Below, piece after piece: positions 515-22,931 of a stretch of DNA of 22,931 nt; positions within the stretch are counted from its first letter, which is position 1; every line of letters begins with the position of its first letter. The DNA lies in contig JAABOA010000079.1 in the NCBI GenBank assembly GCA_015680635.1, positions 1-22,931 on the forward strand. Direction: 5' to 3'. A program made the translations under genes and the position numbers. This DNA comes from Lunasporangiospora selenospora. Taxonomy: Eukaryota > Mortierellomycota > Mortierellomycetes > Mortierellales > Mortierellaceae. The notes beneath the pieces were generated by a model. It did no database searches and was not told the DNA's origin. It worked only from the letters and a program-made list of their open reading frames with translations.

Positions 515-3500
515 ATGGAGGCCCTTTCGCTATATCATCTCTTTGAGGCCACTGTCCAGCCTGATCCCAATGTCCGCATCCAAGCCGAATTGCAACTCAA
601 ACAGGTATGGGCCAGAGCGTCCATTACTCCAGCTTTGGTCATCTGGACTGTCGTTTTGTCAGGCACCAGCATATCAGTACCGCGAGTACTCACATAGTCT
701 CGACATCTTCTGATTTAACGCGCGTTCCTGAAATATCTTGTTTGTACAATAGCTAGAGGGTACTCCCGGCGTTCTTGGAGTTGCTATGCAGATCATTGGA
801 TCGCCAGAGTCTGAGCCCCATATTCGTCAAGCAGGTAACATCCTTTTTTTTTGTTAGAACTTCATTTCTTTCTTGCAATAGTAAACTCTGAAACAGAGTG
901 CTAATCTGAACTTGACTTTCTGAGAAAACAGCATCAATCTACCTCAAGAATGCTGTGAAGCGATACTGGTACGAAGGCGAGTCAACACCATCGCATCTCG
1001 TTATCTCAGATGCTGACAAGGACGTTATCAAGGAGCGCATTATCCAACTTATTGTCATGGCACCTACACTTGTCCGGTACGTTCATAGTACAATGGGAGG
1101 GAATCAATCCCCAATCTCTCAAGCATTTGATAGAACGTCAATCCCCTTCGAAAACGATAATTTGGAAACAGTATAGAGCACCTTGAGCTTTTCTAAATAT
1201 CTTTTATTCTTTCATTCTTTGTTTTCGAACCGGGATACGTTGTGTCTATTAGCACTCAATTGATCACTGTCTTGGGAATCATTTTGTCGAATGACTTTCC
1301 ATCCAACTATGCCGGATTCCTTCCTCAAGTTCAAAGCTTACTTCAGTCACAGGACCCTCAAGCCATTTACGTTGGACTGTTGGCCATAAAAGAGGTTACC
1401 CGTGTTTATAAGTAAGCACCTTATTTCTCTACACGCCCAACACCCACCCCCCCTTTTTGTAATTCCAATACTGTTCGTTCGGTAATTGATATTTTGCCTC
1501 CTTTCTACTTTCGGATAAAACCACCTAGGTTCAAGGCGACGGGTCGTACACCTATGGATGAGGTTATAGTTACATTTTTCCCAGCAATTCAGCAAATCGG
1601 CGTAGGGCTCATCGCCTCCGACAATGTAGAGGCTGCAGAAATGCTCAAGATCATCTTCAAGTGTTACTACAATGCTATCCAGCTCGATCTCTCGGAGCGA
1701 CTCATGGATAGCAACCTCCTTGTCCCTTGGGGAACCCTTTTTATTCAGATGGTAGAAAAACCCGTCAAGGTAGAGGGAGCTTCCCCCGATAGTGGCAAGG
1801 AGCTTGGAAAACATCCTTGGTGGAAGGCTAAGCGCTGGGCTTACCAATGCTTGAACCGCCTTTACACACGCTACGGTAACCCAACCGCGTTGACGACCAA
1901 CTCCAAATTCAAGCAGTTTGCGCTTGGGTTCGCTCAAAATTTTGCCCCCAACATTTTGTCCGCTTATTTGAAGCAGATCGAACTCTGGGTGGCCAAGCAG
2001 GCGTGGCTCAGTCCCCGTGCTCTCAGCCTCATCGGCACCTTTTTTGAAGAGAGGTAAAGTGAAACGATCGAGAGTCTCACTGCGCAATTACAGCTTTACA
2101 TTTAACTTGCAGCTTACATTGGCCATCTTCCATCTGTTGGTTTTAGTGTCAAGGACAAGCACACCTGGTCCATGATGAAGGCCCACTCCGAGACGCTTAT
2201 CACGCATTTCGTTTTCCCCCAGCTCTGCTTCACTGCTTCGGATGAGTCTCTCTGGATCGATGATCCCGTGGAGTATGTCCACTCCAAAATTGGTAGGCAT
2301 CTCAGCATCAGTTGTTAACTAATGAAATGTATCGACTGCTGTTATTGGTTACATATCAAGAATACGATAGACTAACGGGTATTTTCAATTACTAAACATT
2401 TTATTATATAGATATTATTCAGGACTTTAGCAGTGCTCCCGGAGCAGCCATCAGCTTCATGACCACCATGGCGCGTTACCGCAAGAACGCGTTTATGCAG
2501 GTCCTCTCCTTTGTCAACAACGTGCTCCAGAGATACAACGAGTCACCAGCGGAGGCCAAGAACCCACGAGAAAAGGATGGTGCACTTGTCATGGTTGGAG
2601 CCTTGGCATCTCTTATTGTCCGCAAGGTAAAGACGTCTTGCCCAAAGATTTGGATTTCCTATCGATAGTGGTGAAGGACTCGCTTTGTTTCGTCTCAATA
2701 CATACTAATCCTCCTTTCTCTCTTTGGGGCCAATTGAACAGAAATCGCTTTCGGCAATGATGGAACCCTTCTTTGTCAACCACATTTTCCCCGAGTTCAA
2801 GAGTCAATACCCGTATCTTCGCGCTCGTGTAAGCGCCAGCATCCTTGAAGGGGGAGCAGGATAGAGCATACGTGAGTATTATGACTTCAATGACTGACAG
2901 TCTTCCTTCACCCTTTCATTTGAATACACAATACATTAGGCTTGCGAGATCGTGAAGCAGTTTAACGAGTTGGACTTTGAGGATTCAAACAACACTGCTA
3001 TTGCTTTCTCTGGCTTGATGGATGGACTTCAGGACAGCCAATTGCCAGTGAAAGTCGTTGCCGCTTTGGCATTGCGCCCAATGATCCGACACGACCTTGT
3101 GCGCGAGGCAATGCGACCTCACCTGCAGCAAATCATGCATGAACTTCTCAAGATTACAAACGAGATCGATGTTGATACGCTATCCGAAGTGATGGACGAT
3201 TTTGTGGAAGTGTTCTCAGATGACCTTGCGCCATTTGCTGTTCAATTGTGTGAGCAATTGCGAGATACCTATATGAGGATCTGCTCGGAAATGGCTGTCT
3301 ACACCAGGGACCACGAGGACGGCTCTGATCATATCTCCGAAGAAGCGACCGAGAAGACCATGACTGCCATGGGTATTCTTAAAAACATGGGCACATTGAT
3401 TCTGAGTCTCGAGAGCACTCCAGACGTCCTGAGCCAACTCGAGTCGGTCCTCTTGCCTGCCATCACTTTTACTCTCCAGAACAAGGTTACGGATCTGTTT

Positions 3501-4803
3501 GATGGTGTTTTTGAGATTATTGACAGCTGCACCTTCTCGGCCAAGGCTATTTCGGCCAACATGTGGGGTGTCTTTGAACTGATCTACAAGACCTTCAAGG
3601 ATGTGGGTATTGATTACATTGAGGAAATGTTGCCCTCGCTCGACAACTATGTCTCGTATGGCAAGGAGGTTGTCTCAACGAACGAGAACGTCAAGCATAT
3701 GTTTTTCGACATTGTTGACACGGTAATGCAGAGCGAACGGTTGGGAGAGGCGGACCGAGTGTGTGCCTGCAAGTTGGCCGAATCTCTGATGTTGAACTGT
3801 CGCGGCCATTTAGACAAGTATGTTGCGCCAATTCTCGGCCTCGTTTTCCACTATCTGGCACACGAGGAGGGCATCCAGACAGTCGAGTTTCGCGTTGAGG
3901 CAATCGAGGTGGTGATGAATGCATTGTACTACAACGCGCCCGAGACATTGAGACTGTTGGAGGAGCAAGGTTGGACAGAGCGATTCTTCACTGCGTGGTT
4001 TACAAACTTGGACAAGTTTTCGCGTGTGCATGATCGCAAGCTGTCGATCTTTACCCTATGCACTCTCTTGAGAGTTCCTGTCGAGCAATTGCCGCCTACA
4101 CTTCAAAATGGATGGTCGCGGGTCCTGGACGGTATCTTGAAAAACTTCAAGGGATTGCCCATTGCTCAAGCCAGTACGCTCCGTTCTTTTCCATCCTTGT
4201 TTTCAGGAATGATTGTACTGAAAATCTATGAGTAAGCCCGTCTAACCACTTATCTTTTCTCTTTATTTTATAGGGCGCAAGGAGATGCAAAAGATGTACA
4301 ACATCGAGTCGGATGATGACGATGATGAGGATTCAGATGATAGCGATGGAGAAAATGACGATGATGACGATGATGACGAAGCGTTGAGAGCCGCTCTGGA
4401 AGAGGACGATGAGGAGCCCGAAGAAGAATGGGTAGATGATGATGAGGATGTCTATGATGAAGGACATGAGTACCTGGAATTCCTGGCCCAGCAGGCTAGC
4501 AAGGCTGGCGTCGTTGCTGTGGACCAGGCCAGTGGAGGTGAGCAGAAAGAGGGTAGTGCCAACAACTTTAGTATTGAAGAAGAGGATGATGGGGATGACG
4601 AGGACTATTTGGAAGAGGAGATTTATTTCGAATCGCCATTGGATGATCTGGACCCATATGTTGTCTTCCGTGATGTCTTTGTGGGTCTGAAGCAACACAA
4701 CCCGGCGTCATACAACGAGTTGACCAAGGCTACCACACCCCAGCAGCAAGAGTTTATTATGCAATTGATCCAAATCGCTGAGGTGAATGCAGCGGAGCCC
4801 TAA
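515..4803 (+). CDS. Importin-7/8 family karyopherin (Nmd5/Sxm1-like)
   Basis: Nuclear import receptor that carries cargo through the pore and releases it on binding RanGTP. Exons: 515-604, 753-834, 932-1076, 1253-1411, 1529-2053, 2147-2292, 2412-2626, 2742-2828, 2940-4173, 4274-4803. They total 3213 nt, 1070 aa, against about 1040 for human IPO7 and yeast Nmd5. The N-terminus (residues about 22-105) reads as an importin-beta N-terminal Ran-binding domain, with LKNAVKRYW and a following DFP motif. HEAT-like helices fill the middle, with PYLRAR-AC at the exon 8/9 join as in IPO7. Residues about 906-960 are a long Asp/Glu tract followed by EYLEFLAQQA, the acidic region typical of this subfamily. 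The final intron uses a GTACGC donor at 4174, chosen because it alone keeps the acidic frame. The start was taken at the first ATG giving MEALSLYHLFEAT. Family is secure; whether it is the Nmd5 or Sxm1 orthologue is not resolved. Confidence 0.95.
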
Positions 4804-6322: not shown

Positions 6323-8422
6323 TCACTGAGTACGAGCACTCGCTGCAGGCTGCTGAACAGCAGCCTGGCCAAAGCGTGTTATCGCTCCACGGACTGCCAC
6401 ATAAGCCTGGACCACAACTGGTGGTATTTTGGGGTTGCCTCCTGAGGGTGTGATCAGGCTATCAAGTCGAGCGCGAATCAACGCAAAGGCGGTGCGGGTG
6501 TGCAGCGAGAAAAAGTACCGGAAACGCAAAAAGTTGGCATACACCACTGGTGATAAGAGCGAAGACTGAAATCTATTCTCGATTCGAAAATATAATGTGT
6601 AGAGTTGGAACCATATTCGTTTCGCCTTTTGTTCCGTGTTGTATGGGTTTCAGTGAGGTGACTTACGTGATGGCTCCAATAATGAGCGAGCCCATAACGC
6701 CAACAACTTCGACATAGGCAACAAGGGCCATGGCACTTGCATGGTTCTTTTCAGTCCAGACCTGGATCTTTCGCGAGATGGCGGTGACTCGAGTAGCAGT
6801 AGGATCGGTGATACCCGCAGGGGGAGGTGGGAAGATCGCGGGGAGAATATTGGTCCGCGTATAGTTGAGGGCATTGAAGAAGGCAAAAATTGCATAGGGA
6901 ATCAAGGGGGCTAAGAAGGTAATGATTAATAATGATCAGAGTCGAAGTTAGGAGAGCTTGGCTTATTCGGGGCTGTAAGCACATCCCGCGCACAGACCAG
7001 AATGGCAAAATAAGACTGGATAGGTCATATGCAGTGGTTTCAGAGATACGTACTTAGCATGGGCGTCGATCGCCACCAGAAGATCGCCATCAGCAGATAT
7101 TGTACATTCTCCTCAGCAAGCAGCTGTTGCGCAAACTGGGATGTGAATTGAACTTGCTAATAGAGAGTCATCAGGGGAAGGTGAGGGAGCAAGGGAATGA
7201 GTAGGGTGCTCACCATGTCTGGTTAGGTTGGGGGATCCCACACTAGCACATGTCCAAGAGGCGATCGTGCCAAGACGGGGTAAAAAAAGTCAACTGTAGC
7301 AATACTAGTGCTTGTTGACCAAGTGCCTCCTTTTTCTCTTTCTAACCGACTCGGTCTTCGAGTGTTGCCTCGTTCTTCTTTCATGCTGCTCTTTCGTAAG
7401 ACACGCTCTGGTCCTAGAGTAGCTAGGTTCAGAGCCACATGGTATATGTCCAAAGATCACATTTTTTGTTTTTTCCTTTTGTGCCTTTGGTCCAATTGTT
7501 GGAGCGGATATGGTTGCCAAGGCCAATCCTGCCAAGACCTCGATCACAAATCCAAATGAGCTTTTTGTTCCTTTCTTTCTCACGAACAACAGCAACTAAA
7601 AAAATGAAGACATATTTAGTACTTGTCTACTTACAGGGAAGGACTTGTAAACGACAACACTGTAGCTGACCAGCGCTCCGAGAAAGGCCCTCGTGTACCA
7701 GTGAGCTCCCGCCTTGTAGTTGAACGTCAACCAATATGGCAGATAGAATGCCGTGCAAAGCAACATGGTGATATGGCCCAACCACCATGCAAATTGAGGG
7801 CCCTAATGGGAATCATTATAATTCCATTTAAAAAACAGAAAAATCAGCTGCTGTTCAGGCGTCTTTATGGATATTCTCCACAGCATTGTCCGGTGTTTCC
7901 CATTTGATTGGTTCGTTTAATGAGAGAAGACAAAAAAAGAAAAAAGAGAAAAGACGGTGCAACACTAAGACACGGACATTGAGTAATGCCATTCAGTCAA
8001 GGAGCTCTTTTTCGGAGTCATTAGTTGCCAGCGCATCTGTTGACTAGGCAGACAATGCCTGGGAATGCCTTTTTTTTTTTTTTTTTTTTTGGGGGGGGAG
8101 GGGGGATCCTGTCATATTGCCACTCCTTCACGACTTTCTGTCACACACCCAATATGCCGTGGCAAAATGAGTAAAAAAAAATGAAAACTGTCCCGCGATC
8201 TTGCTTTCAGCAAAAGCCAATCCATGTCACCTCTCGGGTCCATTTGCGCAAAGAAAAAAGGAGAAAAAAAAAAAGGAAGCAGCATGTCGAGCTGGGAAAA
8301 AGAGGACCATTTGCTATTCATGTTCATGAATGACAAAATACTCAAAGCAGTGGAGGATGTCGCTCCTTTACCTTGACTAGGGTGAGGAGTCGGTCGCCAA
8401 GTGGAGGGTGAGCAGCAGGCAT
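6323..8422 (-). CDS. TMEM33/Pom33 family ER and nuclear-envelope membrane protein
   Basis: Small multi-pass protein of the ER and nuclear envelope. Yeast Pom33 helps pore complex distribution and assembly; human TMEM33 shapes ER tubules. Exons in transcript order: 8422-8372, 7802-7635, 7156-7054, 6910-6667, 6572-6323, giving 816 nt and 271 aa. Hydrophobic segments lie at residues about 22-44 and 53-70, about 92-125, and about 160-190. Family marks are AQQLLAEENVQYLL (TMEM33 has AQALLEDSCHYLL at the same place), NALNYTRTNILP, and a SLLSPVVYANFLRFRY block matching SLLQPFIYYRFLTLRY of TMEM33. The C-terminal 60 residues can form an amphipathic helix, as reported for Pom33. The gene follows the chitin deacetylase with only 160 bp between stop and start. 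Introns 1 (569 nt) and 2 (478 nt) are long for this window. The 17-codon first exon is the least certain part. Confidence 0.88.
7157..7634 (-). other. Long intron 2 of the Pom33-like gene (478 nt)
   Basis: Donor GTAAGT at 7634 and acceptor ATTAG ending at 7157, both phase 0, joining the codons for KSFP to QVQF. A strong internal acceptor-like site, T-rich then TAG, lies at about 7596, followed by 12 nt and a GTGAGA donor-like site near 7583. An in-frame stretch of about 96 codons also follows that acceptor. TMEM33 homologues need no insertion at this junction, so the region is called intronic. Confidence 0.6.
7803..8371 (-). other. Long intron 1 of the Pom33-like gene (569 nt)
   Basis: Bounded by a GTAAAG donor at 8371 and an ATTAG acceptor ending at 7803, phase 0. 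It contains the poly-T/poly-G tract at 8070-8105 and several A-rich runs (about 8174-8275). Open frames inside it have low-complexity composition and no recognisable domain. Confidence 0.6.
8070..8105. repeat. Poly-T (21) followed by poly-G tract
   Basis: Twenty-one T are followed directly by eight G, one A and six G. On the transcribed minus strand this is a C-rich block followed by A21 inside intron 1 of the Pom33-like gene. Such a junction is prone to length error in sequencing and replication, so exact lengths should not be trusted. Confidence 0.9.
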
Positions 8423-11291: not shown

Positions 11292-14110
11292 TCACTTTTG
11301 TACAATAGGCATCGGAGGATCGGTCTTGATCTCGTCCACAAAACTCCAGTCCTCGTCGTCTAAAAAGTCCAGTTGTAACTGACTCAAGGTGGGCATTGCC
11401 TGATGCAGTTGTGATAACTGCATTTGCTCTTGCTCCATCATCTGTAGCCGGAGTCGTCGCTGTTCCTCTAAAATCCCTTGTATCTGACCCTCTGAAGCTC
11501 CATTCAGCGATTGACTAGAGCCCTGAGCACTGCCTTGGCCTTGCACGTGTTGTTGCACTTGTTGGTTTCTGAGATGACTTTGGAATGTGCTAAGCTGATG
11601 TGCTTGCTGCTGATGGTCTTGGCGCATAGTAGTTTGCTGCAGGTTCAATGAGAGCTGTTCTACTTGTGAATGACCATTACCAAACCCTTCGGGCAGGACT
11701 GACTGGTTGACAAGCCCCGTCTGGGCGTTGGTCAGGCTGAGATCCATGCCCATATCATCCGCACTCATCCCCGCACCCATACTTGTATCCATGCCCAAAT
11801 CCATGCTCAGTCCAATGTCTGCAAGATAATGTCCGTCTCTGTTCAGGGCCATTTCAAGCTCTAATTCATCCTTTAACACCCTTGCTTGTGATTCACCCAC
11901 AAATTTGCACATGTCCTGGAAACAGTCGGCACAGTCTACCGTTGGTCGGCCACAGCCACAGCCACAAATGAGTACTCCAGTTTCACTCAAAAGGGTTGGG
12001 TGTTGCATCCTTGCTGCCTCTACCTCAGCTCCAGGGAATCCCATTACTGCTTGCCGGGCATCGTACTCCATGCCATATTGACCAATCAAACTTAAGGCTT
12101 TGGAAAGGTTGATCGCTTGATGTCCGGAGGCGCCGCCCGAAGCATTTGAATGACCATCCATCGCAGCCTTCGCCATCTTTGAACCACAGCAGGAGCCTCC
12201 TTGTGCGTTTCTATTGAGCTGGGTATTCGCAGCGCTTGATTCAGGCGCAACCACATTTACGACAGGTGACTGTGAGGCGAATCCTGAAACGTACGATGCA
12301 TGGTTATTAGGATAGGCGAGGCAGCCAGGACAAGCACACATCTCTCCACAGCAGCACATGCTCGCTGAGACGGCACAGCCACAACCACTCATATCTGCTC
12401 CTTCCTGACCAGCGTCGCTCCTGCCAGCAGAAGTCGACTGGGGAGGTGCAGTGGGGGTCGGTGAGTCGGTAGCGTTGCTAGGACGGCAACAGCTCTTGGA
12501 GGTGGAAGGTGTTGAGGTAGGGAACTGCTGCTGACTAGCCGAGCACGAGCCATTGGCAGTCGGGAAGGCAGTCGTCAGCTGTGGAGGTAACGAAGGCGAA
12601 TCTGTTGAGAAATTAGAGAGTGCTGTATAAAGTGATCCTACGTCATCGGCCGAGGCTGTAGGATGGATCGATGAGGAATGACTGCTTAAACTAACGATAC
12701 GCAAGGTGTCTGCGTCCACAAGTTCGTCAGAGGCATTGCTCATCGCATAGTCTGGCAGAGTTTGAGGATAGTACGAGTAAGTCGAAGGTGTGCTGTACTG
12801 ATCACTGTCATAGTCCGAGGAGCTTGCATAGTCGAAGCATAGGTGAGATTGCATTTGTAGTTGGGGGTTGCTTGTCGAGGAGCCTGGACCATAAGTCAGA
12901 CCTCCTGTGACCGGAAGAGAGGGCATGAGTTGTGCATAGGTGGAGGCCTCTCCCTGAGTCATGCCGATAAATGGACTTCCAACACCAACACTAGAGGAAG
13001 AACTAATACTGCCATCAGGGCTTTGAGCGGGCTGCGCACTCTGTGCATAAAGTGCGATAGCTTTTGGTGAGGAAGAGTCCCGAGGAAGGATGAGTAGCCC
13101 TGGTTTGCCAAGGTCAAGCGACGTTGCACTTCGTTGGTGCTTTACTTGAAAGGTCTTGAAGACGGTCGAAGGTGAAGTACTCTTCCCGGGCTTGACAACA
13201 ATATGACCACCGCGATCACGGCAACAAGTGCAAACCTTGCCTTCCAAACAACCACACGAGTATCCTGCATGACAGTAAGATGGCGTATGGCCGATAAACA
13301 ATCACGACAATCAAGATAAATGAGAGCAAAGTGAGCGGGGGAGTCAAACCAAGCCATGCGTTAGAAAGAACTTTTTTTTGTCAAAGGAAAAGTTCACATC
13401 TTTCGAAACCATGCGACAAAGAGCAAGTTTCCGTGCTTTCCATACCTGCAGCAGGCGACGAGATATCCGTGGATCCCGTGCCTTCAGCAGACATTGCATC
13501 CCCGATGTCAAAAGGTCGACCATCATGAGAAAGTGACTTGGTGCGTTGGACACCATTGACCATCGCAGATGTGGCTAATAACAAAAATTGAGATAATAGA
13601 AATTAACACCCTTGCCCAATAACAGTCCGAGCACGCAGCAAACCAAGACCGAGAATGACTCGGCATTTTCGAGACAAGAACCAAAGAATGAGAACTTTAC
13701 CATCCTCCCGACCACAAATGCATTTCACATGCACTTGTTTTGCTTTTCGCAACTCCTTGCAATGCTGGCATTGTGTTGCAGGACGACCTTTCTTCTTGAT
13801 CTCATGTAGTGGTCGTTCACTATTGTCATTGCCATTGAAGGAATCAGGGACCAATAAGACAGATGGGCTTATTAAATGGCTCACATTGCACACCTTGATT
13901 TTAAGACAAAAGACAGCGGAGAAATTTCCCCTTCATTCTTTCCTTCTACCTCTACTTACCCATGGTTACAGGTCGTCGACCGATGGCCCTTGATGCAGGT
14001 TGCACTATTGAAAGATGTGTACATGTGAGAAGTCTGCACGAAATAGCCTGGTGCGATATAGATTTCCGATAGTCATACCAGGCGAACTTTTGGCCATTCA
14101 CAAAAACCAT
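11292..14110 (-). CDS. Copper-fist transcription factor (Ace1/Mac1/Cuf1 type)
   Basis: Copper-responsive DNA-binding regulator. Exons in transcript order: 14110-14079, 14004-13960, 13819-13701, 13574-13446, 13264-11292, giving 2298 nt and 765 aa. Residues 1-45 form a complete copper fist: zinc ligands C11, C14, C23, H25 at the same numbering as yeast Ace1, and KGRP at 36-39, the minor-groove motif. C43, C46, C59 and C61 continue the Cys pairs. Three further clusters follow: YSCGCLEGKVCTCC at about 110-123, CGCAVSASMCCCGEMCACPGC near 402-422, and CGCGCGRPTVDCADC near 545-560, with a CC pair near 465. The middle one resembles the C-x-C-G-x2-C-x-C-P-G-C sensor motif of Mac1/Cuf1, but the closing His is six residues away. 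The rest is low-complexity Ser/Gln/Pro/Met; the last 35 residues are acidic and aromatic, like an activation region. Whether it turns on copper uptake or detoxification cannot be told. Confidence 0.92.
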
Positions 14111-15552: not shown

Positions 15553-16928
<1,376 letters not shown>

Positions 16929-17385: not shown

Positions 17386-20300
17386 ATGGCAGGATTGGAA
17401 TCTTCAATACCACTAGCTACCTCGGAAGGGGGTTCTGGAGACGCTGCAGAGGGTAGCCGACCTGGCCATGGACGTGGTCGCGGTCGAGGACGTGGTCGAG
17501 GACGTGGACGAGGACCAGGAAGACCGCGTGGCTCGTCCCGCCGTGGAGGTAGGGGACGTGGACGTGGAACAGTCCAGAACCAGGACCAAAGGGATAGCCA
17601 GGACTTGCACGACTCAGATCACAGTGACCAAGAAAGGATATACAAGCCAAGCCAGGACGATAACGATAATCATTTGACAGACACTACCGACTCTACTTCT
17701 AATTCTTCCGAGTCCGAGTCTGGCTCTGATTCTGACAAAGCTTCAGATTCTAGGCTTGAAGATGAGAAAAAGGAACGTCTGCAGGAACCCAACCCCAGTA
17801 GAAGACACTCAAAATCGTCGACAGTGGTGGCGCCTGCAGGCCTTGATTCAAGAACAGATTTGATAAAACAGAGGAACAATCTGCAACCCCACACCATGGT
17901 AGAGCCATCAACTCAAAAAATGACTTCATCAGATCGATCCTTCTTCTCAGAGGATCTATTCAATCAAATTTCAGTTGGTGGCACTGGACGAATGGTGGGA
18001 ATATTTACTCAAAAAGCGCGGCAAGTATATGGTTCAATAGCATCCACAAATTCGGGAACTCTACTACCTGAGATTGAGGCTAACGGCGTAATGACAAGGA
18101 AGCGAAGGATGTCCAAGACACTTTTGTCAGGGTCGCCAAGCGCAAATATGCCATTATCGAAACTACGGGAGAAGAAGTCCAATGACCCGTCCAACATGGC
18201 ACAGACCGGCAACGCCTCTGCTCCAGCAGGTACCGCTACAGCAGCGGGGTCGACAGCTTCATCTGCCACAGCACCATTGCCAGTATCCAAGGCCTTTGAT
18301 ATCAACGAATTAGTGGCCTCTGTCAGCTCTTATGTACCAGAGATCGTCTCAGCATTACACAGTGCACAGATCAAGTCAACTCCTTCAAATGCAGCTCAAC
18401 ATCCAACCTCACAACAACAACAGCAGCAGCATCAACAGCAGTCGCAACCTTCTGGACTACTTGAATTGAAGCCCCCAGTCTCCTGGTTCCACCACCCATG
18501 CTTGCACTCGTATGACCACCGGTCTAGCCTTACCAGGGATGAACACCGCCGCTATCTAATGTATGAAGGGATTGTACGCGAACAGCACAATAACAAGCAC
18601 CTTCCACGTCTCAGCTCCGAGGACAGAGTACTATGGGCCAAACTGCAGGAACAGGTTGAGCATGAGCGCGCCCAAGTACGGATGTGGAATGCCAACATTG
18701 TGCGTCCAAGAATCACCAATCTTTTCAATCCTTCGATCCGGGCAGCATTGGAACCGAAATTTAGGAGAGCACGCGCTCGCGTGAGAGGAGAATACCCACA
18801 ATTCTATGACTTTGTGCAGGCAATCGGGCTGAGGTTGCCCGGGAATGCTTCTAAGGAGCCCGTGTTGATGAGAGCAAAAGTGGATGTCAGCCCAGCCATT
18901 GGGGGATCCACTGGGTTGACTGTCGAGCAATTGAATCGTGGACTGCTGAAGCGGATTGGAAAGGTCTGTCCTGTAGCGTTAGAGAAGCCAGTCTGGCCTA
19001 CAGATGAGAATGGTGTCCCTTTCGAGAAGGGTGTAGATGTAGATGGCCGGTATTGGTCCATGATAGGAACCCCTTCAATTACATCGACAGTAGCGGATGG
19101 ATCCAAATCACGATCGACGACTAAGGACCGACGTCGCGGAAAGATACCCGGAAAAAAGGCAACGCTGCCTGTCTCGACGGATACAATCGTGGGAGAGCTG
19201 GTCAAAGAGCACAATGTCCATATTTCGGTCGCTGCGAGTACATTGGTAGCATTGGTGAAAACCGTCCCAAGTCTTTCACCAGAGTGGGAAATCCCAGTCA
19301 AGGTTGTTATCGAGACTGACTCGAATGGTAAGAATTGTCAACCTCACCCAATCCTTGCCAAACAGGATTTCTTTGCACAGCCAACACAGTGCCAAGCGGC
19401 TCATACCCACGAATGTTTTACACCCAAATTTCAACTTTACTCAATAGGTCTGCAACAAAAACACATCTACATGGACAAGCCGTTAGTCTCCAAACGCATG
19501 TCAAAACTCGAGATGACCCAACAATTTTACGATGGCGCTCTCAAGAGACTGTCCTTAACCAACTCTGCATCCAAGGGCGTTGATGTTTTGTCCCCTGGCA
19601 GTAATATTCAAATCCCAAGTCATGAGTCGAGCCCTGTTGCAGCCACGACTGTGAATGGCACTCGTGCGGATCAGCCCCCTGTGGGTCAATTCCAAGGTAC
19701 CAGTTCAAGCACAGAGTCGAGTGACAAGTCTAAACAGCCTAACCAATCAACTCTTCGGGATTCAAGCAAAGATCAAGAGCTTCCCAAGACTGCCCCGACG
19801 GAAGGTCTAGAGGGCTCGAACAAGCTAGTAAAATCTGAGCTACCTTCCGACGATGTTGCGATGGAGGACGTCAGTATGAGCTCAAGTCCTCCAAAACGGA
19901 CGAACGAAGGGATGACTGATGTAACTATTGACACTCCAAGCGGGGAGTCTGAAGAAGATGGTGTCCTAGGATCCCTCTCTTCGAGTGACGATCGAGCCGA
20001 CAACTTTGAGTACTCGCTTTGGACTTTTGGTGATATTCGATTACTTGTTCGTAGCCGAATTCATGGATACCTCACCAACACAGTAAATTGCGATATCTTA
20101 TGGCCGTCTTTGTCTGAGAGCACTCTCTATCTCACGAAATTGTTTGATACTAACTGCGACCCTTCATATTTTTGTGTATTTCTTAGCGACCCTATCGACA
20201 AATCGTTCTCAAGTCTTTGCTCGATTTTGCGCCAGAGATTGGACCTTCCGAAATGTCCAAGACGGCTATGGCTGGCCTGTGGATGGCTACATGGCTGAGG

Positions 20301-21002
20301 GATGACAGACTCATTGCTGCCGGTCACTTGAATGTACCAAGAAATCAGTTTGCACGATACCCCGCACCTAGCCCTTATTTGACGGCAGATTCTATTCATC
20401 CAGAGAACCCTCTCCGAGCCACGTTCTGCGACCTACCCTCAATCCAGATTGAGGATGCAAGCCAGTTTCGTGTTCAAGAGAGGGATATTCATGAGTGGAT
20501 CAAGCCGAACATGCGAATGATTCATTATGTACTAGGGAAGCTTATGCACCTGGGACCAGGACAGTACCTCTTAGCTCACAAACGTCAGGACGTGAACGCA
20601 GTCCTCTATAGGGCAGCTACATCCGAGTCCAGTGAAGAAAAGGACAGGAGAGGCTCTTTGAGATCTGCCTCAGCTCCAACTTCTGGCGCTTCGACAAACA
20701 CAGCAGTGACTGCTCGTGGTCAATATGATTTACATGCTGCGCACGAAGAGTCGCCACAACTGACCAGCGATGAAGGGGGAGGAGCGGTTGAAGGGATCAC
20801 ACCTTTGGACGATGACCAGCTGTTGCTCAAGTGGATCGGAACTCCTGACCAAATCTATGGGACATTTCCATATAACGAGAACGAGCCAACCCCCAAGATC
20901 CGCAAGCCTAGTCATAGTTCACAAGCTGGAAAACAGGCAGGGCGAGGTCGTGGTCGCGGTCGTGGCCGTGGTCGTGGTCGGGGAACCCAGGCGAATGAAT
21001 AA
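17386..21002 (+). CDS. Little elongation complex subunit 2-like protein (ICE2/NARG2)
   Basis: In animals ICE2 works with ICE1 and ELL to support snRNA transcription by RNA polymerases II and III. Exons: 17386-19327, 19448-20082, 20187-21002, giving 3393 nt and 1130 aa (human ICE2 about 980). Residues about 835-1005 match the NARG2 C-terminal domain in order: YSLWTFGDIRLLVRSRI (animal form has LLLLIRCSV), then a LW-x2-TWL-x11-GHLNVPRNQF block, then HYVLGKL-x6-GQYLLAHKRQDVNAVLYRA (human reads HILKKL, then SYLLSHAAEDSSLLIYKA). A second conserved-looking block begins at WFHHPC (about 367) and contains LTRDEHRRYL and LSSEDR. The N-terminus is an Arg-Gly array with an AT-hook-like GPGRPRG (29-62), then Ser/acidic low complexity and a Gln run (about 344-356); the C-terminus has seven GR pairs (1111-1125). 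Intron 2 is confirmed by the frame change; intron 1 is 120 nt and open in frame. The family call rests on remembered motif order. Confidence 0.82.
17464..17571 (+). repeat. Arg-Gly coding repeat, N-terminal array of the ICE2-like protein
   Basis: GGTCGT/GGACGT-type hexamers encode alternating Gly-Arg across residues about 29-62, broken by GPGRPRGSS. Third bases vary, so the array is kept at protein level and is not a fresh expansion. Confidence 0.85.
19328..19447 (+). other. Intron 1 of the ICE2-like gene, 120 nt, open in frame
   Basis: GTAAGA donor after the first base of a Gly codon and a CAATAG acceptor. Removal joins ETDSNG to LQQKHIYMDKPL, which resembles the IDKPL segment of ICE2 proteins. 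The interval is a multiple of three with no stop, so an unspliced message would add 40 residues containing several Cys and His. Confidence 0.75.
20939..20985 (+). repeat. Arg-Gly coding repeat, C-terminal array of the ICE2-like protein
   Basis: Seven Gly-Arg pairs plus a Gly (residues 1111-1125), written mostly as GGTCGT and GGTCGC hexamers. It ends five codons before the stop. Confidence 0.85.
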
Positions 21003-21296: not shown

Positions 21297-22931
21297 ATGA
21301 GCTCGTTTAAGAGACGCGTTCCTTCAGCACAGGCAAGTTTGCCAACAGGATGCCGTCTTTCAGCCTACAATGGACAAGTTCTCATTTCAACTGGTGTCCC
21401 TTCGTTGGATGATATCCTTGGCGGAGGCTTGCCCGTGGGAACTATTTTACTGATCCAAGAAGACCGCCAGACCTCGTATGGTCAACTGCTCTTGAAATAT
21501 TTTTTGCGACAAGGAGTTGTTGCGGGAGACAAGTGCGTTGTAGTCAGTGGAGACGAACCTCCCGAGGCAATTATGAGATCCTTGATGGGGATTGCTGGAG
21601 AAGAGTCGCTGAATGTCCCGCTCCAAAAGGGTGTCGACAATCGCGACGGAGGTGACGATGGAGACAATGATGCCGTCCAAGACAAATTGACCATTGCCTG
21701 GAGATACAGTGGACTCAAGAAATTTGAGAGCGGTGTCGAGGCCAGGAATACACCTAGTAAATGTAATTTTTTGATCTACCTACCCAAGAAAAAACCACTT
21801 TTGATCCTCCAATGCGATCGTGCTCTAGCCTCCCCTTTTTTTGTTCACCACTTTTCTCGTGTATTACTATCCCAATGTACGACTCTTAATAGCCATCTCA
21901 CCTCGCGTCAACAAGTCTGCAGCCCTGACTCCAGATTCACCTCCCTCAGCGGCTCAGATCCCTTTTTGCGAACAGTTTGATCTCACGACCAGAATCTCTG
22001 CTAGGGCGCTGGAATCTGCAGATACAACACTGATCGACTCTGGAGATATTTTGCGAAGCTTTGATGGAAGTCACCTTCGAAGCCTCAATTCTGAAAGCGA
22101 AGAGGAGGACAATGAGGAGGAGGACGATATGGAAGGACATAACCAACCGGATCTCTACAGAAGTGTTTTGGAAAAGATCCGGGACGTAGTTATTGGAGGA
22201 GGATTCAGTACGGCACTTGCTAGAAAGGATGCGGCTGATACGGCCGCCGCCAACAAGTTGCAGGAGCGTCATATCTGCAGAATTGGCATCAACTCAATTG
22301 CATCCCCAAGTTGGCGAGGCAGGACTCCTCACGTAATGCGAAAAGATTATCGAAACGCCTATCTTTGTACTTGCATTTGCCTTTTTTTTTCTTTTCTTTT
22401 TCGGGACCACCCAAATATCCTGGCATTAACAGACCAATTGGTGCCCTTCGTCTTTTCCAGGATCTCTACAAGTTTCTCCATGCGCTTCGTGGACTTCTTC
22501 GATTCAGTTTTGGTGCTGCCGTAGTCACTATTCCAGCCCATCTCTACGGCACAATAGATCAACGGCATGTCACAGATGGATCCACCAGTTCGCCATTTAT
22601 TCATCGTCTGGAACAACTCTGTGACGCGTCGGTTCGGATCGAGTCGTTTGCAGGCGCATTGACGAATTCGTCCTCAGCCGCCTCGGATTACCACGGTCTT
22701 TTCCATGTTCACAAAATCCCTGTCCTCAACTCGCTTGTTCCTTCGTCGACAAAACTCTCGATCCTTTTGGACGGGTCTGTCAAGGGTACAGGGGGGGCCA
22801 GTGGAGCACGAGCAGGTAGTGGTGCCCCTGGCAGAAGTATGAATAACCTTGGCTTTAAGGTCCGTCGTAAACGGTTTGCGATTGAGACGTTCCATTTGCC
22901 TCCCGAGGGAGGCGTTGGCCAGAGAAGAACA
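21297..22931 (+). CDS. ELP4: Elongator complex subunit Elp4 (3' end beyond window)
   Basis: Elp4 forms a hexameric RecA-like ring with Elp5 and Elp6 that binds tRNA within Elongator, which modifies wobble uridines in the cytoplasm. Exons: 21297-21756, 21893-22332, 22461 to beyond 22931; 457 residues are visible, close to the yeast length (456). STGVPSLDDILGGGLPVGT at about 31-49 is the family N-terminal signature; the P-loop position reads IQEDRQTSYG, lacking a GKT/S as in other Elp4 proteins. Then come IAWRYSGLKKF, FCEQFDLTTRI, RIGINSIASPSW, DLYKFLHALRGLLR and, near the edge, GFKVRRKRFAIETFHLPPE, which sits near the C-terminus of Elp4. Low-complexity inserts lie near residues 117-128 and in exon 2 (EEEDNEEEDDMEG). 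Intron 1 has two possible donors, 21757 and 21763, both giving the same phase. The gene begins 294 bp after the previous stop. Confidence 0.93.

Follow-up and report, generated by a model that had tools for sequence, protein, structure and literature searches.

An ICE2/NARG2-family protein encoded in the fungus Lunasporangiospora selenospora

We found that the fungus Lunasporangiospora selenospora encodes a protein of the ICE2/NARG2 family. The window (the whole stretch of DNA that was analysed, 22,931 nucleotides long) carries a three-exon gene whose predicted product contains the NARG2_C domain (Pfam PF10505) near its C-terminus. The gene product is a new member of an already known family, and we place it in the ICE2 family with high confidence. 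The little elongation complex (LEC), to which ICE2 belongs, is described mainly in animals. In the literature that we searched, mainly open-access papers, we found no treatment of ICE2 in fungi; fungal NARG2_C proteins may already be listed in protein databases under automatic names.

The core human LEC consists of ICE1, ICE2, ELL and EAF. At the snRNA genes and replication-dependent histone genes of human cells it aids both transcription and the processing of 3' ends, and the binding site for ICE2 is the C-terminal half of human ICE1 (PMC7044329, PMC5493778). The function of ICE2 itself has been called unknown (PMC5493778). As cited in PMC6057032, loss of human ICE2 reportedly leaves snRNA expression unaffected; thus, the molecular role is unclear even for the animal protein.

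Gene structure and the NARG2_C domain

We re-derived the gene as a join of three coding exons on the + strand (Table 1), and the result has the same end points and the same 1130-aa length as the gene model of the first-pass annotation. Both introns are predicted from the DNA. The length of intron 1 is a multiple of three, and the reading frame remains open even when this intron is retained. We called it an intron because it has a GTAAGA donor and an AATAG acceptor, and because the ICE2-like block is unbroken across the joined ends; its predicted removal rests on these splice signals and on the continuity of the block. Intron 2 has canonical signals, and the frame is lost unless it is removed. 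Exon 3 alone scored 36.3 bits against NARG2_C; joining the exons across intron 2 raised this to 51.2 bits for the whole protein, and to 58.2 bits for residues 820–1060.

Table 1. Features of the ICE2-like gene, in window coordinates
Feature	Position	Strand	Details
ICE2-like gene	join(17386..19327, 19448..20082, 20187..21002)	+	1130 aa; internal stops 0
Coding exon 1	17386..19327	+	Start ATG; residues 1-647 plus one base; open frame, splice donor AATG/GTAAGA (exon/intron)
N-terminal RG-repeat stretch	17464..17571	+	AT-hook-like PGRPRGS core; read from the sequence
Central block like the centre of human ICE2	19171..19569	+	Residues 596-688, split by intron 1; BLASTP
Intron 1	19328..19447	+	120 nt, GTAAGA...AATAG; ICE2-like block continuous across the junction after removal
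Coding exon 2	19448..20082	+	Up to residue 859
NARG2_C, first stretch	19984..20345	+	Residues 827-912, split by intron 2; profile 4-94; Pfam PF10505
Intron 2	20083..20186	+	104 nt, GTAAAT...TTCTTAG; CTAAC branch-like motif
Coding exon 3	20187..21002	+	Residues 860-1130, stop TAA
NARG2_C, second stretch	20511..20771	+	Residues 968-1054; profile 123-182; Pfam PF10505; independently recovered in genome search
C-terminal (GR)n tail	20937..20984	+	SmD1-like; phmmer vs PDB

A Pfam profile search of the 1130-aa protein matched NARG2_C with E = 1.4e-13 and 51.2 bits, the curated cut-off for this profile of 211 positions being 30.8 bits. The match consisted of two collinear stretches, which together span profile positions 4–182 of 211. 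No other Pfam family scored above its own cut-off in the protein. The first-pass annotation had likened three blocks in residues 835–1005 to the NARG2 C-terminal domain; these blocks lie inside the Pfam match, which is significant and has no better competitor from another family. A profile search of the genome assembly located PF10505 in a single copy, in the ICE2-like gene only.

Low-complexity sequence is abundant in the protein, as would be expected if the NARG2_C match had arisen by chance or composition. Profile scores and the reversed-sequence control refuted this explanation, whose probability we consider negligible. Residues 820–1060 in isolation matched the profile with E 1.1e-15, and the same residues in reverse gave zero matches to Pfam. 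In addition, the matched stretches lie outside the low-complexity regions, and two exons match the profile collinearly. Exon 3 read alone already scored above the NARG2_C cut-off, and the match is therefore independent of the splicing guess.

Comparison with human ICE2 and the RG repeats

For comparison we used a provisional human ICE2 sequence of 982 residues that we take to represent the human protein. Its C-terminal part, the only validated portion, matched NARG2_C with 271 bits over profile positions 1–211 of 211. The NARG2_C region of the fungal protein aligned with the provisional sequence at a BLASTP value of 1e-6. The central block (residues 596–688) aligned at 4e-7, with 28% identity over 94 aa, to a portion of the provisional sequence that is unvalidated; its score was reached by none of 500 shuffles. 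Identity between the fungal protein and provisional human ICE2 was 18–28%.

The two aligned blocks occur in the same order in both proteins and are separated by a long linker of low complexity. The fungal protein resembles human ICE2/NARG2 in its C-terminal NARG2_C domain, apparently in the central block ahead of it and in the disordered-looking character of the long linker, as well as in a size of about 1000 residues (982 human, 1130 fungal). It differs in its fungal host, in the RG repeats at both of its ends, in an insertion of about 30 residues inside the domain, and in a low-complexity insertion near the domain end. Scans of viral and prokaryote contigs detected no relatives of the ICE2-like protein.

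Two further similarities were examined by shuffle tests. The alignment of the N-terminal half (residues 362–482) with human ICE2 (block 89–235) was persuasive by eye and not significant, 490 of 2000 shuffles being equally good; nor was the terminal LDxxLLL...TFP block significant by itself, similar as it looked.

With RG repeats at both ends, the protein may bind RNA or be methylated on arginine. Searched with phmmer, the C-terminal tail matched PDB chains of SmD1 at E 0.0008–0.002, a low-complexity match only, and the solved structures that matched the protein did so only through low complexity, in the RG tails of SmD1 and of ribosomal S10. The near-perfect GRGRGR repeat at the fungal C-terminus is like the tail of SmD1, whereas no Sm domain was detected in the fungal protein and the similarity is of low complexity only. 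In the style of the SmD1 tail, the repeats could add RNA binding or Tudor-type contacts.

Candidate partners and proposed role

The first-pass annotation had proposed an ELL-containing complex in this fungus, and this proposal is partly supported by the assembly searched (8.2 Mb, 475 contigs). EAF (ELL-associated factor, PF09816) is encoded in the same assembly on contig C469. Spliced from C469:255-497 (L002 252-494) and L002:698 onward, it scored 34.5 bits, above the cut-off of 26. ELL (PF10390, PF07303) and ICE1_C (PF25817) were not found in this very incomplete assembly; SNAPC3 was not found there either, which is uninformative. Eukaryotes have 14 proteasome-family genes, and our completeness check saw about 2 of these 14 expected genes, so that the absence of ELL and ICE1 carries almost no weight. 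Perhaps about one seventh of the genome is represented, a rough figure that may be too low because an exon-by-exon search misses genes cut by introns.

Animal EAF binds ELL and is a core LEC component, and fungal EAF is hence a candidate partner of fungal ICE2. It is a separate gene, on contig C469. The EAF gene (L002 252-494 and 698-1996) encodes a long C-terminal part that is Ser/Gly-rich and has acidic repeats.

We consider it likely that the gene is a fungal orthologue of ICE2 in an ELL–EAF assembly, setting aside the details of target genes. The C-terminal domain would dock fungal ICE2 into the ELL–EAF elongation assembly, as in animals, probably via an ICE1-like scaffold. The ELL–EAF–ICE2 assembly would then cooperate with RNA polymerase II on short transcription units that yield non-polyadenylated RNA, for example snRNA genes. 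Strict orthology to ICE2, with these partners and target genes, is what we infer as most likely from sequence comparison. In support of this explanation are the NARG2_C match without a competing family, the central block, the single copy and the presence of EAF. Counted against it were ELL and ICE1_C, which were not found, the reported lack of an snRNA effect on loss of human ICE2, the non-significant blocks, and the use of a provisional human sequence for the central block. On the question of whether the fungal protein works in a LEC-like complex, we regard the chances as evenly balanced.

Alternatively, the protein might descend from ICE2 and carry NARG2_C yet work independently of an LEC; it could, for instance, be an RG-rich factor that binds RNA or DNA and serves in pre-mRNA processing or chromatin. 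Such a role would fit the long RG repeats and AT-hook-like core, which were not seen in human ICE2, and the failure to see ICE1 and ELL in the assembly. We judge it unlikely, given that EAF is encoded in the same assembly, that two separate ICE2 blocks appear to have been kept, and that missing partners do not count in an assembly this incomplete.

Genomic setting and origin

The ICE2-like gene is native to the fungus and is not animal contamination. The gene directly upstream on the same contig encodes Gsp1/Ran, and the best solved match of this GTPase was yeast Gsp1 (413 bits, versus 391 for Ran). This gene and the Elp4 gene flank the ICE2-like gene, and the contig also carries a copper-fist gene and a polysaccharide deacetylase; we concluded from these neighbours that the gene is native. 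Intron density, a GC content of 47.7% and the presence of ACTC microsatellites would be compatible with Mortierellomycota. Although the animal bias in descriptions of the LEC would favour animal DNA as the source, this neighbourhood and the distance from human ICE2 (18–28% identity) make contamination very improbable.

An older origin of the ICE2 subunit had been suggested at first pass. With a NARG2_C protein native to a fungus, we grade this as probable: the subunit is probably older than animals. A broader proposal is tentative, and we rate it somewhat below an even chance. It holds that the LEC, or at least an ICE2–ELL–EAF core, predates the animal–fungal split and that in some fungi it still serves short Pol II genes with non-polyadenylated transcripts, ICE2 being linked to snRNP assembly through its RG tails. 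With a fungal ICE2, the subunit would date from before animals, and its function could be tested in a simpler organism. If ICE2 is kept in some fungi, one could also ask which partners and target genes disappear alongside it.

Several other features were observed in the window. The Gsp1/Ran GTPase gene (15553-16928, + strand) is complete, with four exons encoding 212 aa, and the Elp4 (PAXNEB) gene directly downstream of the ICE2-like gene (21297-22931, + strand) has several exons and reaches the window end. A copper-fist DNA-binding domain (PF00649; 13819-14110, − strand, continuing to 13603) is encoded in three short exons and scored 73.1 bits when spliced; to our knowledge, the copper-fist family has only fungal examples. 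Downstream of these exons, a long Cys-/Gln-rich ORF (11292-13301, − strand) may be the remainder of the copper-fist transcription factor. The protein with a polysaccharide deacetylase domain (PF01522; 9362-9901, − strand) is probably a chitin deacetylase. A HEAT-repeat-like protein (2940-4803, + strand) with an acidic C-terminal part gave weak CSE1/importin matches, all below cut-off, and is probably a karyopherin. An exon of a TMEM33/Pom33 nucleoporin-like membrane protein (6663-6935, − strand) scored 27 bits against a cut-off of 24.
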